A stretch of 41,064 bases of DNA from Elusimicrobiota bacterium (GTDB lineage Bacteria > Elusimicrobiota > Elusimicrobia > F11), in NCBI GenBank assembly GCA_003140895.1, contig PLLH01000088.1, positions 1 through 41,064 on the forward strand, read 5' to 3'. This document shows positions 426 through 15,201 of this stretch, one piece after another. The position numbers and the translations under genes are program-made. The notes under the pieces are model-generated. The model was not told the origin of the DNA and searched no databases. It saw only the letters and a list, made by a program, of their open reading frames with translations. Within the stretch, counting starts at the first letter, position 1. Each line of letters opens with the position of its first letter.

Positions 426-905
426 TTACGGCGCGACTTCTTCGACGAGCTCGGGTTTGAATTTGGGTATATCAGCACGATCCGTAAGAAATGACGGGTT
501 GACTTCTTTATTTATGAACTTTTTGTTCTCTATTGAAACAAGATCGGCGTAAAAATAAATAAAAGCAGCATCCGAATTTCCTTCGAGCTTAACTCGTTTG
601 ATCTTAAATACACTGCCGGCAGGAGCGATACCCTCGACTATCACCGAATAATAACTAAAGGGAAATTTTTCTTTCATCTGTTCTTTATTTGGCAATTGAC
701 CTACTCCATACTGATCGAGGAGAAGGTCCTTTGTCCCCTGATATCGATAAATCAACAGATCGTTTTTAGTTTTATATTCCTTACCAATCATCGCTGAATA
801 GCTCGGATGCTGGCTTAAATCTCGATCAATGGACCTAGCCATTCCACTCAACACCACTGGGCACAGCCCTATCAGTATCCCTGTGGCAAATTTCTTGAAT
901 TCCAT
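426..905 (-). CDS. Small exported protein of unknown function
   Basis: About 159 residues. I take ATG 905 as the start because GAGGAGG lies just upstream; the ORF-track start at 929 adds eight residues and has no such site. The N-terminus (MEFKKFATGILIGLCPVVLSG) looks like a signal peptide. A cysteine sits in the hydrophobic core, but the lipobox is not canonical, so a lipoprotein assignment is doubtful. The mature part is polar, lysine-rich and ends in an acidic tail. I recognise no family. Its start lies inside the end of the 730-aa hydrolase-like gene (34-nt overlap), so the two are probably translationally coupled and may work together. Confidence 0.7.
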   Translation of the reverse strand: MEFKKFATGILIGLCPVVLSGMARSIDRDLSQHPSYSAMIGKEYKTKNDLLIYRYQGTKDLLLDQYGVGQLPNKEQMKEKFPFSYYSVIVEGIAPAGSVFKIKRVKLEGNSDAAFIYFYADLVSIENKKFINKEVNPSFLTDRADIPKFKPELVEEVAP

Positions 906-3064
906 TCTTGCCTCCTCTGCTCCAGCCAACTTTTTATGACAGCTTCATATTTATCAAATCCGTGAGCATCAAGCCCCCATTTTGCTCCCACATTTTGGCT
1001 CTTCACATCATCTTTCGAGAGCCGGCCCCAATTCCCGGGCAATAGGAGGTTGATCAATAAATTCAAACGATTCCCAAAAGCAGGAACGGGGTCCCCTTCA
1101 TTCCACACGTTTGTCGCATCTGCCAACCCCTCTGTTTTAGCATCAATTATCCATTCGGGACCCACGCCGAGATAATGAATTTTTGACTTCTCTTCTTTTG
1201 TCAGGAGAGAGAGTGCCTGATGAAAAATAGCTGTTCCTTGGCTGTGTGCCACCACATACACCTCCCCTCTTTCATTTATAGCGATTCGAAGCGCTTTTGC
1301 TGTCTGAATGGCCGGCTTATCTATGCTGCCAAGAAGTTCATAGCCGATGGCTTGAAAAAGATCCCTCACCATACCATGTGTGTTATTTCTAATTAAGGTC
1401 GATTCACTAATTTGGAAATATTTTTCCATTCTCTCACTTCTATCTCTTGCCAAACTGTCGATGGTCGTCATCCCAGGCAATGCCATTAACGCCGGCCCAG
1501 TCTTATCAAAGCGAACCTTGTTTGGCGTATCAAATTGATCCCCGGACATAATTCCCTGCGCAAACCCTACTGACAATCGTGTCCCCATCCACACTTGCTT
1601 GACTCCCGGGAGATCAAGCGCCACCCCAATCACCTGGCTGGGAATTTTGATGGCGTTTCGAATGAATCCAAAAACAAAGCTTTCTTGATTCTTGGCGGCT
1701 GGAATGGCGTCCGTATTCTTATTGTCCTGGCCCGACGGTGCTATCGACAATTTTTGGTAGGCCGCTTTGAGATCCGACAACGACATAAACCCCGGATCAG
1801 AAAAGCCGGCGGCGAGGAGGAATTTTTCGGGGGCGGTATCTCGGAGAGAGGTGAGGCTTTGGCGCATGGCTTTCACATCCGCCCATTTCCCCGTCACCAT
1901 GTACCACACATTCTTCAGGGCGTTCCCGACGGAGAAACGACTCTTGGAGGATTCGGCATCGGGAGCGGACACCTCCACCTTGATTTCCAAATCTTCTTTC
2001 CCAAAGAGCGCGGAGATATCTTTGGCGTCGCCAAATTGTTTTATGGCGATATCGCCGTTTCCCGTCACTTTCAGCGGCAATTCCGCCATGTCGGTGCCAT
2101 TAAAGCGGAAACTGCTCCGTGGGCCTACGAAAACAGGGACGGGAAGGTGATCTTTCAGGAGCGCGAAGGCTTGATCGGGATTTGTCCCCTCTTTGGGGTT
2201 CCACGTCACATTAACGGTCGGCGCTCCGGGGCTTTTGATTTGGCATTGCACGGACTTCACATTATTTCTGTCATCCCGCGGCGCCGTGACGGTGAAAGTG
2301 AGGTTTATTTTACCATCGGTGATGGTTCCGCTGTAGCCCGTCAAGTGTCTTTTGAGGGCCGAATCATACTTCATGGAATCGACGGAAAGGTTGATCTTTG
2401 AGTCGATGGGCTTTCCACTCTCCTCACGCGACGAAACCCGCCACGTCTCATCAAACCCGCTCACCAGCTCTTTGGACGGCGCGGGCGGCACCGTCACATC
2501 GGCATTCTTGCGCTCTTCGTTCGCGAAAAAGGTCTCAAAGCTCTCGTAAGAGGGGTTCTTCTCTCCGGCTTGATGGGTTCTCTCAATCTGAACAGAAGCC
2601 CCCTTCGAATCCCGATAGGTTTGCTTGAAGTCCGTCGGGGTGACGGAGCCGGGGGTATAGGTCATCTTCGATAAATCCATCGACACAACATCCGGCGCCG
2701 GGTTGCCGTCAAACGTAAACTGGATTTTCGCGCTGTACGCGGTGGCGAGCTTTAAATCGCTGTTGAAAGAATAATTTTCTTTCTGATACGTCCAGACGGA
2801 ATTGCCGATATCCCGAACGTCAAACTTCGGCAGGCGAAGCGTGTTGAGATCGATATTAAAATCAGGGATTAAGTTGAGGTTGAGTGACCGCGGGTTGAAA
2901 TAACTGGATTGAAAGTTGGCATCAGGCCGGCGGACGGTATCAGGAAGCGAGGTGTTGATGTTGGTCGGGCTATACGGATTGTCGTAATCGAATGCCTCAA
3001 GTGGAGGCAACTGAACCAATAAAATAATGAGGGCCAGCGCGAATCGAATAATGTTCCGAATCAT
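872..3064 (-). CDS. Exported protein with C-terminal alpha/beta-hydrolase (lipase-like) domain
   Basis: 730 residues. Residues 1-24 form a signal peptide (basic MIRN, hydrophobic core, cleavage near LEA-FDYD). Residues about 25-450 are rich in beta-type sequence and resemble no family I know. The C-terminal region carries a nucleophile-elbow motif, VVAHSQGTA (Ser about 608), followed by Asp in NEGDPVP (about 658) and His in DAHGF (about 701). The order and spacing fit a Ser-Asp-His hydrolase triad of the lipase/PGAP1-like type. The substrate is unknown. The gene overlaps the small exported gene downstream by 34 nt. Its ATG has no good Shine-Dalgarno but lies 6 nt after a TACAAT box, suggesting leaderless expression. 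It is flanked by two copies of a sensor kinase gene, which suggests an accessory insertion. Confidence 0.7.
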   Translation of the reverse strand: MIRNIIRFALALIILLVQLPPLEAFDYDNPYSPTNINTSLPDTVRRPDANFQSSYFNPRSLNLNLIPDFNIDLNTLRLPKFDVRDIGNSVWTYQKENYSFNSDLKLATAYSAKIQFTFDGNPAPDVVSMDLSKMTYTPGSVTPTDFKQTYRDSKGASVQIERTHQAGEKNPSYESFETFFANEERKNADVTVPPAPSKELVSGFDETWRVSSREESGKPIDSKINLSVDSMKYDSALKRHLTGYSGTITDGKINLTFTVTAPRDDRNNVKSVQCQIKSPGAPTVNVTWNPKEGTNPDQAFALLKDHLPVPVFVGPRSSFRFNGTDMAELPLKVTGNGDIAIKQFGDAKDISALFGKEDLEIKVEVSAPDAESSKSRFSVGNALKNVWYMVTGKWADVKAMRQSLTSLRDTAPEKFLLAAGFSDPGFMSLSDLKAAYQKLSIAPSGQDNKNTDAIPAAKNQESFVFGFIRNAIKIPSQVIGVALDLPGVKQVWMGTRLSVGFAQGIMSGDQFDTPNKVRFDKTGPALMALPGMTTIDSLARDRSERMEKYFQISESTLIRNNTHGMVRDLFQAIGYELLGSIDKPAIQTAKALRIAINERGEVYVVAHSQGTAIFHQALSLLTKEEKSKIHYLGVGPEWIIDAKTEGLADATNVWNEGDPVPAFGNRLNLLINLLLPGNWGRLSKDDVKSQNVGAKWGLDAHGFDKYEAVIKSWLEQRRQEWNSRNLPQGY

Positions 3065-3070
3065 GCGTGA

Positions 3071-3114
3071 ATTGTACTTCCCTCACCCCCCGTTGGGAAT
3101 AGTACTTTAGGGCA
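3071..3114 (-). promoter_or_regulatory. Promoter with conserved upstream element (copy 1)
   Basis: Reading the minus strand, TTCCCA (-35, 3094-3099) and TACAAT (-10, 3071-3076) are separated by exactly 17 bp. The -35 lies at the end of a 21-bp element, TGCCCTAAAGTACTATTCCC plus A (3094-3114), that recurs at 9345-9365 with one mismatch and the same 17-bp spacing. The -10 ends 6 nt before the ATG at 3064, so transcription would start at or beside the start codon. The inner TACTAT could instead act as a -10, but no -35 matches that reading. Confidence 0.55.
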
Positions 3115-10516: not shown

Positions 10517-11806
10517 TTACACGCATTCGCCGTGGAGTTCGCGAGAGTGGGTTCCCGTGATCTTCACCTTCACGATTTGACCGCATTTTAAATGCTGATT
10601 TTTAATCCGGGCCCGCCAAGCCCCCCTCGTTTTCCCTCGAAAAAGGCCCTCCCCTTTGTCGTCTTCAATCAGCACTTCTTGAACGGAATGAAGCAGAGCG
10701 CGCGCTTTTTCGGTCCCTTTCTTATTGGTGAGATCCAACAGGGCGTTCAGACGGTCTTGTTTCACGTGGGTGGGAACGTCATCGGCCTCTTGCGCGGACG
10801 CGGTTCCGGGCCGGGGCGAATAGCCGAAACAGTAGGCGGAATCAAAATCCGCTTCTTCAATAAGGCTCATCGTCTCACGAAAATCGTCCTCCGTTTCTCC
10901 CGGATACCCCGCGATCAAATCCGTCGAAATGACAATCGATGGAATAAGCTCGCGCAACCGGCGCAGGCTCGCCAAGAATGAGTCGCGCGTGTAACTGCGC
11001 TTCATGGCTTTTAAAATTTTGCTGGAGCCGGATTGGACGGGAAGATGGATGGCTTCGCACACCCTGGAGCTCTCGGCCATGGCCTGGATCAGCCTCTCGG
11101 TCATGTAATAAGGATGCGGACTCGTAAACCGGATTCGTTCAAGGCCGGGAATGGCGTTCACGTCTCGGAGCAAGTCAGAAAAATCATAGCCGCCCCGGGG
11201 CGGCAGGGACGGTTTATAAGAATTGACCGTCTGCCCCAAAAGCCAAATCTCTTTGGCGCCGGCGTCCACGCGCCTCTTTACTTCAGAGAGAATATCCGGC
11301 ACCGGGCGATACGACTCCCGTCCCCGGACAGACGGAACGATACAATAGGAGCAATTGTAATTGCATCCTCGCATGATCGTCACGCCCTGGCTCACGGGAG
11401 AAAGAGTCGATACGCTCTGCTCCGAGGGAATCAAAGCGTCCATGTTCTGTTTTGATGAGAGGACCTCATCCAGCCGCGCGGAAAATTGGTCGATCTCCTT
11501 GGCTCCCACAAAAAGATCCACGTGAGGGAAGCGTTTCTCCCATTTTCCCTTGGAGTGTTCCACCGCGCACCCCGCCACGATAATCAAACGGGACGGGTTC
11601 GCGTCCTTCCACTCTTCCAGGCTGCCGATATAGGAGGAGGCTTTGTGCTCCGCCATATCTCGAACCGTGCAGGTGTTGACGAGCGCCGCGTCCGCTGAAT
11701 CGAGATCGGCCACTTCTTGAAACCCGCGCGCTTTAAGGTGGGCCCCCATCTCGTCGGAATCAGCGACGTTCATCTGGCATCCAAAGGTTTTTGAAAAGTA
11801 TTTCAC
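10517..11806 (-). CDS. miaB: tRNA-2-methylthio-N6-dimethylallyladenosine synthase (MiaB-type methylthiotransferase)
   Basis: 429 residues from GTG 11806; the 15 extra residues of the track ORF are unlike MiaB and lie across a promoter. Domains: N-terminal UPF0004 (FSKTFGCQMNVADSDEMG, with further Cys in VNTCTVRD and VAGCAVEH, binding one Fe-S cluster), radical SAM (GCNYNCSYCIVPSVRGRE, the CxxxCxxC cluster), then a C-terminal TRAM domain (IEDDKGEGLFRGKTRG). The sequence is closer to MiaB than to RimO or MtaB because of the FGCQMN start and VRGRE motif. It adds a methylthio group to i6A37 in tRNAs reading UNN codons. The GTG lies 7 nt after a perfect TATAAT with no Shine-Dalgarno, so the mRNA may be leaderless. 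The PilZ gene follows after 82 nt. Confidence 0.9.
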   Translation of the reverse strand: MKYFSKTFGCQMNVADSDEMGAHLKARGFQEVADLDSADAALVNTCTVRDMAEHKASSYIGSLEEWKDANPSRLIIVAGCAVEHSKGKWEKRFPHVDLFVGAKEIDQFSARLDEVLSSKQNMDALIPSEQSVSTLSPVSQGVTIMRGCNYNCSYCIVPSVRGRESYRPVPDILSEVKRRVDAGAKEIWLLGQTVNSYKPSLPPRGGYDFSDLLRDVNAIPGLERIRFTSPHPYYMTERLIQAMAESSRVCEAIHLPVQSGSSKILKAMKRSYTRDSFLASLRRLRELIPSIVISTDLIAGYPGETEDDFRETMSLIEEADFDSAYCFGYSPRPGTASAQEADDVPTHVKQDRLNALLDLTNKKGTEKARALLHSVQEVLIEDDKGEGLFRGKTRGAWRARIKNQHLKCGQIVKVKITGTHSRELHGECV

Positions 11807-11819
11807 GTCGAGGATTATA
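11804..11819 (-). promoter_or_regulatory. Leaderless-type promoter of miaB
   Basis: TATAAT (11814-11819) ends 7 nt before the GTG start of miaB (TATAATCCTCGACGTG). A transcript starting at the normal distance from this -10 would begin at the start codon. There is no convincing -35. The same -10 and 7-nt spacing recur at 15106-15121. Confidence 0.55.
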
Positions 11820-11828
11820 CTACTTGGG

Positions 11829-12623
11829 CTAAAAATGGTGTTTCGTGGCACTTGAATCGCGGTGGTATTGCCCGAATTCCTTCATCTGGAGGACTTCCTC
11901 CCCGGGGAAAATAGTGCCTTCGACACAAACCCTTTTTCCGGAGTCATCAAGACTGCAGGCTCCGCAAACGCCGAAGCCACACTTCATCTGGCGTTCCAAA
12001 CTAATATAAGAACGGACTTTTGAATCCCGGCAAAGCTCCGCCACCTTTTTCTCCATCCGCTCGGGGCCGCAAACATAGACAGAATCAACCTTCTGATTTT
12101 TGAGGATGCGGGCCAGCGCATCGGCGGTCGTGCCGCGTTCGCCGAACGAGCCGTCATCTGTCGTATAAATGGCGCCCAGCCCAAGCGTTGCCACACGCTT
12201 TCGGTAAAGGAGTTGAGCCTCTGTTTTTGCGCCGATAATCATGGTGGCGGTCAATTTTTGCGAAAGAGCTTCTTCCGCCAGAAGCATGAGCGAAGCCGTT
12301 CCGTAACCGCCTCCCACCAGGACGACTGTTTTCCCTTCAAGTTGAAAAGCATTTCCGTAAGGGCCCAACACGCCGAGAAGATCCCCTTCTTTAAGCTCAC
12401 ATACTTTCTTAGACCAAGGGCCGACGGCGCAAACAGTAACACCGATATGATCTTTGGTCTGATAGGAAATCCCGACGGGTTTGGCGTCAATACCGGGAAG
12501 CCAGATCATGCAAAATTGTCCGGGTTTGGCCTTGAGTTGGCAGGGAAGTAAAAAACTCTTTATCCCGTTAGCTTCCTCGATCACCTGGGAAATTCGAACC
12601 GTGATGGGCAATTCAAACTTCAT
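11829..12623 (-). CDS. pyrK: Dihydroorotate dehydrogenase B electron-transfer subunit
   Basis: 264 residues. It has the ferredoxin-reductase layout: an FAD-binding barrel (1-100), an NAD-binding region with GGGYGTA near 105 and VYVCGPERM near 190, and a C-terminal [2Fe-2S] site with four cysteines (MKCGFGVCGACSLDD...RVCVEG, C215, C220, C223, C233). PyrK passes electrons from dihydroorotate oxidation in PyrD to NAD+. The usual RPxS flavin motif reads KPVGIS here, a mild departure. The start overlaps the end of pyrD by 11 nt, which fits the known PyrD-PyrK heterotetramer. The pair sits away from the pyrimidine cluster at 26-31 kb, which has its own class 2 enzyme. Confidence 0.92.
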   Translation of the reverse strand: MKFELPITVRISQVIEEANGIKSFLLPCQLKAKPGQFCMIWLPGIDAKPVGISYQTKDHIGVTVCAVGPWSKKVCELKEGDLLGVLGPYGNAFQLEGKTVVLVGGGYGTASLMLLAEEALSQKLTATMIIGAKTEAQLLYRKRVATLGLGAIYTTDDGSFGERGTTADALARILKNQKVDSVYVCGPERMEKKVAELCRDSKVRSYISLERQMKCGFGVCGACSLDDSGKRVCVEGTIFPGEEVLQMKEFGQYHRDSSATKHHF

Positions 12624-13530
12624 GGGCTGCTCCTCGAATCTCTTTTAAGGACTTGATGTTTTCCGTGTCCATGAAGGCCTGCATCTCCTGGCAGACTTGT
12701 CGAAAGACGGTGATACCCCGGTCGTAGACGCCGGATCCGATGCCGACCGCGGTGGCGCCGGCCATGATCATTTCAATGGCATCTTGTCCCGTGGCAACGC
12801 CGCCTGTCCCAATGATGGGAATCTTCACGGCCTGGGCGATTTCATAAACGCACCGGACCGCGATGGGCCGAAGGGCGCGGCCGCTGATGCCCCCGATCTT
12901 TCCGCCCAGAATCGGTTTCCGACTGACAATATCGATAATCATTCCGGGGCCCGCCGTATTGACCGCGGTAATGGCGTCGGCCCCCGCCGCTTCGGCCGCT
13001 TTGGCCAGATCCACAAGTCCCATGACGTTGGGTGATAATTTAACAAACACAGGGACACGAGACCTGTCTTTGACAAGGCGAGTGACGGCCTCCGTCTTTT
13101 CCGGGGTGCTCAAGCCCGCCATGGTTCCGTAGCCCGGTGTATGGGGACAGGAGAGAACCACCTCGAGTGCAGAAAAGTTTAACGCGGCCGCTTTCTCGGC
13201 CAAAATCTTATAGTCATCCTCATTGCGGCCGGTGATACTGCCAATCACAGGGACCCCGACCGATGTGAGATCAGAAAATTCGTCCCCCACATTGTCTATC
13301 CCTGGATTGGAGTAGCCCACCGAATTAATCATGCCCCCTGGATAGGTCAAAATAATGGGCGCGGGATGTCCTTTTCTCACCTCGATTGACAGTGATTTGA
13401 TCGTCACAGCACCGGCCCCCCCCTGGGCCGCGAGGGTTAGAGAAGCTCGACTGATACCGACAATGCCTGAGGCAAGAATCGTCGGATTTGGAAGCTTCAT
13501 TCCGCATAGTGTGATACTGAGTTCAGACAT
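12613..13530 (-). CDS. pyrD: Dihydroorotate dehydrogenase, class 1B catalytic subunit
   Basis: 305 residues, the usual length of class 1B enzymes. It has the TIM-barrel FMN site with the class 1 catalytic cysteine (LSCPHTPGYG, C128), KSLS for the flavin lysine, NTAGPGM, and the phosphate-binding GTGGVATGQDA. It oxidises dihydroorotate to orotate using NAD+ through PyrK. GGGAG precedes the ATG, and a good sigma70 promoter lies at 13571-13599. pyrK overlaps by 11 nt. Anaerobes and facultative bacteria often use this class. Here it coexists with a class 2 enzyme at 27650-28753. A catabolic pyrimidine role cannot be excluded, but the pyrK overlap argues for class 1B. Confidence 0.94.
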   Translation of the reverse strand: MSELSITLCGMKLPNPTILASGIVGISRASLTLAAQGGAGAVTIKSLSIEVRKGHPAPIILTYPGGMINSVGYSNPGIDNVGDEFSDLTSVGVPVIGSITGRNEDDYKILAEKAAALNFSALEVVLSCPHTPGYGTMAGLSTPEKTEAVTRLVKDRSRVPVFVKLSPNVMGLVDLAKAAEAAGADAITAVNTAGPGMIIDIVSRKPILGGKIGGISGRALRPIAVRCVYEIAQAVKIPIIGTGGVATGQDAIEMIMAGATAVGIGSGVYDRGITVFRQVCQEMQAFMDTENIKSLKEIRGAAHEV

Positions 13531-13570
13531 TATGTCTCCCGGGTTTTTGGCTCACTGACCTGCACGGTTC

Positions 13571-13599
13571 ATTAAAATAAATAGAGATGGAGGGGTCAA
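13571..13599 (-). promoter_or_regulatory. Sigma70-like promoter of pyrD-pyrK
   Basis: On the minus strand, TTGACC (13594-13599), a 17-bp spacer, then TTTAAT (13571-13576). Each hexamer matches consensus at five of six positions. The predicted start lies about 35 nt ahead of the pyrD ATG, which has its own Shine-Dalgarno. Confidence 0.65.
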
Positions 13600-13638
13600 A
13601 TCAGATTGAAAGCCACGCAAGTGAGTGGTTTGTTCTCA

Positions 13639-15108
13639 TCATTTCAACGCGTCTTCCATCCGCTGGGCGTTCTTGCTCACGCTCTCATAATCGGGGAATT
13701 TTTTTACGAGCGCCTTCATTTTTTCAAATCCTTCCTGTCTGCGTCCCGCGTCCCAGAGAGCCAGAGCATACCCGTTTTGATAATCGGGACTCTCCGGATA
13801 GAGCGCAGGGAGAGGCTCCATCACGAGAACGGCCTCCTCCGCACGGCCGCTCTGCATAAGAATAATCCCCAGCCGGTAGCTGGCAAAGCCGCGTGGCCCC
13901 TCCCGAACGGTCACTCGATAATTCTTTTCATCGGACCCGCGCAGATCGACATTGAGATGAACGAGAGTTATCCAGAAGAGGATCCCAAAAATAAAAAAGC
14001 CTTTTGACGCCCACCGCAGAAAGGGACGGGGATGATTCCATAATCGAGCGAGCATCGCCGCCATTGGCAGGAAAAGGACGGGAGAAGACATAAAAATCCA
14101 TTTATCCATCATGACCTGGTTGAGCATCATGGCCGGGATCCGCGTGGCGAAAGTAAAAACAAACCACCCCAGGCAAAACAGGATAACGGTCCTGTGTCGG
14201 GGAATGAACAAAAGCCCCGCCAAAAAGACTCCCAGAACAGCCAGATAAACCGGCCAGAAATGGGAGAGATGAAAGATCGGCGGCCACGTCTCGAGGCCCA
14301 GAGGCACATACAGCACCCGGAGATAGTGGAAGACGATCCTAGGAAGTGCGAGAAAAAGAAACGGCAGGGTTTGGGTCCCCAGGGATTCAGGCATATGGGG
14401 AACAACGCGGGACCTCAAGACGAGAAAGGCGCCGACCGCAGGCAGCATCCACAACAATTGAAGATAATTTTCCCTCAAGCGCTTCTGAAGAAACAGGCAT
14501 AGGAGGAAAAGTCCCGGAAGAACGATGTTGCTTTCTTTTGAAAACAACGCCGGAAACGAGAGGAGGAGCGCCGGCCAACCCCGGTTTTTTAAACAGAGGA
14601 GGAGCGTGGCCAGAAGGAAAAAATTGGCCATCGATTCACCTCCCGTGGCGGCCATAAGATCATCGACGATAACGGGGTTTACGGCGAACAGGCTCGCGAC
14701 GATAAAAGAGACCAGAGGCTCAAATCCCAAGAGAGAAAAGAGGACGAAGATCATTATCGCGTTGGAGAGATGGAACAGAAGGGACACGACATGATATCCC
14801 AGCGGACGCTGGTCCCAAAAAAAATGCTCGACGCGGACCATCAGAGATAAAACCGGGCGGTAATAATATGTGCCGGTTTCCTTATGGACCACTTCCGTCA
14901 AATCGCTCTTAAGTCCCTTCCAATGCAAGCCAGGGTCGCGCTCCGTCGCCCGGATGAGAAAGGGATCGTCGATCATAAAACCAACGCGCAACGTCGGCCA
15001 AAACGCGGTGACTCCGAGAGCAAGGATGAGAACCAGTTTCCGGTAATGAAGGGAAATGAAGCCGCCGACGTTCACGGGCAAGCCGAAGGTATTGATGTTG
15101 TATTCCAC
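13639..15108 (-). CDS. Multi-pass membrane protein, GT-C glycosyltransferase-like, with C-terminal TPRs
   Basis: 489 residues. About ten hydrophobic spans occupy residues 23-390. The first extracytoplasmic loop carries an Asp pair (FMIDDPFL, D47-D48) followed by YYRPVL, the pattern of TMTC/PMT-like GT-C transferases that use lipid-linked sugars. Residues about 395-489 form two TPR-like helices pairs (FASYRLGIILMQSGRAEEAV and later YALALWDAGRRQEGFEKM). I infer a glycosyltransferase acting on exported proteins or lipids; the donor and acceptor are unknown. The GTG start lies 7 nt after TATAAT, suggesting a leaderless mRNA. It is divergent from amtB and ends 108 nt before pyrD. Confidence 0.75.
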   Translation of the reverse strand: MEYNINTFGLPVNVGGFISLHYRKLVLILALGVTAFWPTLRVGFMIDDPFLIRATERDPGLHWKGLKSDLTEVVHKETGTYYYRPVLSLMVRVEHFFWDQRPLGYHVVSLLFHLSNAIMIFVLFSLLGFEPLVSFIVASLFAVNPVIVDDLMAATGGESMANFFLLATLLLCLKNRGWPALLLSFPALFSKESNIVLPGLFLLCLFLQKRLRENYLQLLWMLPAVGAFLVLRSRVVPHMPESLGTQTLPFLFLALPRIVFHYLRVLYVPLGLETWPPIFHLSHFWPVYLAVLGVFLAGLLFIPRHRTVILFCLGWFVFTFATRIPAMMLNQVMMDKWIFMSSPVLFLPMAAMLARLWNHPRPFLRWASKGFFIFGILFWITLVHLNVDLRGSDEKNYRVTVREGPRGFASYRLGIILMQSGRAEEAVLVMEPLPALYPESPDYQNGYALALWDAGRRQEGFEKMKALVKKFPDYESVSKNAQRMEDALK

Positions 15109-15124
15109 GCCGGGAATTATACCA
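15106..15124 (-). promoter_or_regulatory. Leaderless-type extended -10 promoter
   Basis: TGGTATAAT (15116-15124 on the minus strand) is an extended -10 with a perfect TATAAT. Seven nucleotides separate it from the GTG at 15108. The preceding CAAG is shared with the miaB promoter (CAAGTAGTATAATCC against CAAGTGGTATAATTC). No -35 match is seen, as is usual for extended -10 promoters. Confidence 0.55.
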
Positions 15125-15201
15125 CTTGCCCAAAGAAGACTTTCTCGGCGATTAAATGGGGCTTGACGTTGGCGCGCTTAATGTGGAAGTATCCGGTCGG
15201 C

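Follow-up and report, generated by a model that had tools for sequence, protein, structure and literature searches.

Do the promoter-like boxes that stand a few nucleotides 5' of start codons at this locus mark leaderless transcripts, and do they amount to separate cases? The window, meaning the whole 41,064-nt stretch of DNA that was analysed (contig PLLH01000088.1, assembly GCA_003140895.1) and to which all coordinates refer, contains three such starts, all on the minus strand. An earlier sequence-only reading had described their boxes, spacings and GTG or ATG codons, and all of these are borne out by the sequence. At miaB, the promoter and start proposed to be leaderless read TATAAT-CCTCGAC-GTG (11804..11819; box 11814-11819, start codon 11804-11806). 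Box and start codon occur a second time as TATAAT-TCCCGGC-GTG (15106..15121), before a gene for a membrane protein with TPR repeats, and this copy carries an extended -10 TG (TGG-TATAAT). The third, an independent proposed leaderless start, is TACAAT-TCACGC-ATG (3062..3076), with a -35-like TTCCCA at 17 nt. The first T of the box lies 13, 13 and 12 nt 5' of the start codon at miaB, the membrane gene and the 3064 gene, respectively. The match to a -35 box is poor at the first two (3/6 each) and fair at the 3064 gene (4/6). None of the three starts has a well-placed Shine-Dalgarno sequence, as the same reading had stated for miaB and the membrane gene.

The miaB start is fixed by homology. The TIGR01574 model aligns from residue 2 of the product that begins at 11806 (gene 10517..11806, minus strand; N-terminus VKYFSKTFGCQMNV), at profile position 1, and miaB relatives begin at the codon equivalent to this GTG. 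A longer frame to 11851 in the open reading frame list overlaps pyrK and is unneeded given the model match and the relatives' starts. The pyrK-like gene (11829..12623, minus strand; PF10418, PF00175) encodes a dihydroorotate dehydrogenase electron-transfer subunit and ends 22 nt 5' of the miaB GTG; pyrD, pyrK and miaB share a strand, where an 11-nt overlap is followed by this 22-nt gap. The minus strand also carries a macro-domain gene (PF01661, 9387-10220) downstream of miaB. The membrane protein gene (13639..15108, minus strand) encodes C-terminal TPR repeats and the N-terminus VEYNINTFGLPVNV, and its open frame contains no further start codon upstream of the 15108 GTG; the membrane-protein search of genome contigs returned no match. 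The 3064 gene (872..3064, minus strand) begins with the signal-peptide-like MIRNIIRFALALIIL and has no significant family, its sole match being a DUF900 alpha/beta-hydrolase at E 0.21.

Counting the exact string TATAATN7RTG gives two occurrences in the window against 0.08 expected and 11 in the whole 2.53-Mb genome (54% G+C) against 10 for a reversed control. Taken alone, this string carries no signal, and the genome count is flat because it ignores reading frame and box degeneracy. A frame-aware test covered 1.87 Mb (~74%) of the genome, in which genes were called by in-frame hexamer scores free of any upstream signal. For candidate starts close to the onset of coding, we tallied -10-like hexamers by distance from the start, over all distances, and took 12-30 nt as background for the 5-9 nt counts. 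Among first-in-unit genes, a box 5-9 nt 5' of an in-frame ATG or GTG was found 36 times against 14.7 expected (Poisson P ~2e-6), whereas out-of-frame ATG/GTG codons in the same stretches gave a flat 8 against 8.7. Operon-internal genes yielded 12 such boxes against 4.5 expected. Under a looser box threshold the count became 62 against 37, a similar absolute excess, and the in-frame spacing peak fell at spacers of 6-9 nt.

The boxed starts share further features. A -35-like hexamer (at least 4/6 to TTGACA, 15-19 nt upstream) accompanies 20 of the 48, against a rate of 14.7% for the same hexamers in coding DNA (P 9e-6), and TTGA peaks at spacers of 16-18. An SD-like motif is present in just 5/48. 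Position -1 is a pyrimidine in 38/48 boxed and 484/818 unboxed starts (P 0.006), an excess that fits a transcription start at the A or G of the start codon. Between box and start codon, the 48 boxed starts are rich in C, which occupies position -5 in 54% and position -1 in 48%. A fixed -10 matrix was used in preference to expectation maximisation with a free matrix, which wandered off to Shine-Dalgarno or poly-A sequence and gained just as much likelihood on a control displaced by 45 nt upstream.

The excess corresponds to ~21-25 genes among 539 first-in-unit genes, or about 4-5%, which is probably a lower bound, since promoters with short leaders raise the background and some starts have been assigned to the wrong position. 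From these counts we infer that leaderless expression in this organism is real yet a minority phenomenon, at about 4-5% of first genes. The suggestion that it is common was therefore too strong, and the proposed rule for choosing starts, though it helps some genes, applies to that minority only.

A comparison of the window's own genome with 59 relatives (60 genomes) extends the pattern to the class, which a MiaB tree did not place inside any named phylum and for which the window's assembly offers no 16S gene. TATAATN6-9ATGA outnumbered TATAATN14-17ATGA in 56/60 class genomes (1808 vs 959 summed, sign test P 9e-13), in counts that disregard reading frame and whose 14-17 spacing also includes ordinary short-leader promoters. 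Eight named genomes outside the class gave 296 vs 263 summed. Within the family, the counts were 12 vs 5 in the window's genome and a weak 48 vs 40 in three other members. One genome outside the class, a Paraburkholderia genome (G063, of L167), showed an unexpected excess of 13 vs 1.

At miaB itself, the near-start box is repeated in the class, though not constant. It occurs 6-8 nt 5' of the start in 4 of 18 readable miaB starts of the class, including TATAAT-N6-ATG in two genomes (G032 and G008) and TATGAT-N8-ATG in a third (G028), all three from another family than the window's genome. A member of the same family (G002, L243) has a near-identical pyrK end, no TATAAT and an SD-like AAGGGA 5' of miaB; the miaB of another genome (G001) is without a strong box. 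The family thus seems to have seen a switch in the initiation signal of miaB. In the window's genome, miaB may be served by its own promoter as well as by read-through from pyrK.

Whether the window's boxes count as separate cases depends on how the miaB and membrane gene starts are related. Allowing up to three mismatches, AAGTNGTATAATNCNCGNCRTG matches just two sites in 2.53 Mb, the starts of these two genes; the shared CAAGT-GTATAAT context described earlier is thus real and unique to them. From CAAGT to codon 14, 45/63 positions are identical (71%, counted by hand), and every difference between CAAGT and GTG is a transition. In the 45 nt 3' of the GTG, with the box left out, 26/45 positions are identical without gaps and in frame, a value reached by 0/5000 shuffles. 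In the 60 nt 5' of the box, similarity between the two genes does not beat shuffles; a 95-bp duplication that took in the 3' end of pyrK was considered and trimmed to ~63 bp, as the part 5' of CAAGT did no better than shuffles. The resulting segments (CAAGT, box, GTG and ~14 codons) lie at 11764..11826 for miaB and 15066..15128 for the copy, both on the minus strand. Local alignment of the 3064 start with either of the other two is at chance level.

The similarity reaches the proteins as well: the membrane protein opens with VEYNINTFGLPVNV, which resembles a degenerate form of the MiaB start VKYFSKTFGCQMNV. Since VKYFSKTFGCQMNV is the conserved MiaB N-terminus, miaB would be the source of the copy. 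The first ~17 residues of the membrane protein are not common to its relatives. Alignments with these relatives, one of them a paralogue from the window's own genome (on C85), begin no earlier than about residue 10-36; the MiaB-like residues are absent from the relatives, which are only 27-35% identical. A close orthologue of the membrane gene displaying the site before copying was not found. The two TATAAT-N7-GTG starts are thus probably two copies of one DNA stretch, and the simplest account is that a short copying event likely took the miaB promoter, start codon and first codons to the membrane gene. Because the similarity runs on into coding sequence, miaB and the membrane gene count as one case, and what had been presented as three cases becomes two, one duplicated and one, the 3064 gene, independent. 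The leaderless interpretation itself has genome-wide support from the in-frame peak at 6-9 nt with its flat out-of-frame control, and class-wide support from the excess in the 60 genomes.

Starting from the observed boxes, spacing peak, controls and sequence similarity, we can propose where transcription would start, how translation would begin and what may have been copied. A sigma70-type -10 box placed 6-9 nt ahead of the start codon would direct transcription from the ATG or GTG, or from within 1-2 bases of it, and ribosomes would initiate at the start codon that forms the 5' end of the transcript, with no Shine-Dalgarno sequence involved. The 3064 gene would be an ordinary member of the leaderless minority, and miaB would have its leaderless box inside the 22-nt gap after pyrK. 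An in-frame copy of box, start codon and first miaB codons would then have come to head the membrane/TPR gene, 3.3 kb upstream, and this gene would thereby have gained a ready-made promoter, a start and a short MiaB-derived N-terminus. We regard this combination, a leaderless minority like that of the class, a near-start box at miaB and a copy of the miaB 5' cassette at the membrane gene, as fairly probable. The more general proposition, that a leaderless promoter is a self-contained movable cassette of box, start and first codons, and that one copy of the miaB cassette, joined in frame to an unrelated membrane gene, gave that gene promoter, start and new N-terminus in a single step, seems to us evenly poised.

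The boxes could be real promoters and yet be secondary or idle, if most translation of miaB and of the membrane gene took place on longer transcripts, either leadered or belonging to an operon, and in the case of miaB by reinitiation after pyrK. The close one-strand packing of pyrD, pyrK and miaB, the retention of the pyrK-miaB linkage without a box in the same-family genome G002 and the poor -35 matches all speak for this possibility, which we nevertheless consider unlikely, given that neither start has a Shine-Dalgarno sequence, that the genome-wide spacing peak depends on frame and that miaB boxes recur in other genera. Convergence of the two starts on a common promoter consensus, without copying, is a doubtful account. 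Both genes would need a TATAAT and a start codon, and similarity 5' of CAAGT is at chance level, but a consensus would hardly explain the lack of a third site within three mismatches, the transition-only differences or an identity that extends in frame past the start codon at a level above all 5000 shuffles. That the boxes are chance occurrences in a 54% G+C genome, as the unenriched exact string might suggest, is very improbable in view of the contrast between in-frame and out-of-frame spacing, the -35 and -1 signals and the class-wide spacing test.

The leaderless mechanism to which we attribute these starts is already known. Leaderless (TA-led) genes have a TANNNT/Pribnow-like signal about 10-12 bp upstream and no Shine-Dalgarno sequence, and they form a minority across many phyla (Zheng et al., 2011, PMC3160421); the boxed starts described here share both the box position and the lack of a Shine-Dalgarno sequence. 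Where such genes are found, their mean share is 4.2% in Firmicutes, 19.2% in Actinobacteria and 39.4% in Deinococcus-Thermus (PMC3160421, Table 2). Leaderless mRNAs of the latter two groups likewise have a -10 box 6-9 nt before ATG or GTG, but make up about 19-39% of genes (PMC3160421), compared with about 4-5% of first-in-unit genes here, as measured by excess boxes. Relative to the TA-led genes of that study, what is added here is the lineage of the window and, within it, a box and start codon that recur as a linked copy. A literature search on leaderless expression in Elusimicrobiota returned nothing on point. The present counts extend computational evidence for leaderless expression to a little-studied class whose start codons are prone to mis-annotation.

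Of these additions, the more interesting is the probable copy of a promoter-start cassette. Genes can acquire promoters by local DNA duplication, in which a copied promoter is set before another gene. Since the promoter here is leaderless, the unit that was probably copied differs in also taking in the start codon and the first few codons. The miaB/membrane gene pair provides a testable example of a promoter and start copied as one unit and, if the account is true, movable leaderless cassettes could be a general route of expression recruitment in lineages with leaderless genes. The pair also serves as a warning that linked, duplicated motifs should not be counted as independent support.

Two divergent gene pairs elsewhere in the window's genome have both genes boxed at 7-9 nt, one at ~35750-35820 of contig C16 and one at ~3920-4025 of contig C49 (L060). 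This arrangement suggests leaderless promoters set back to back in a space of about 70-100 bp.
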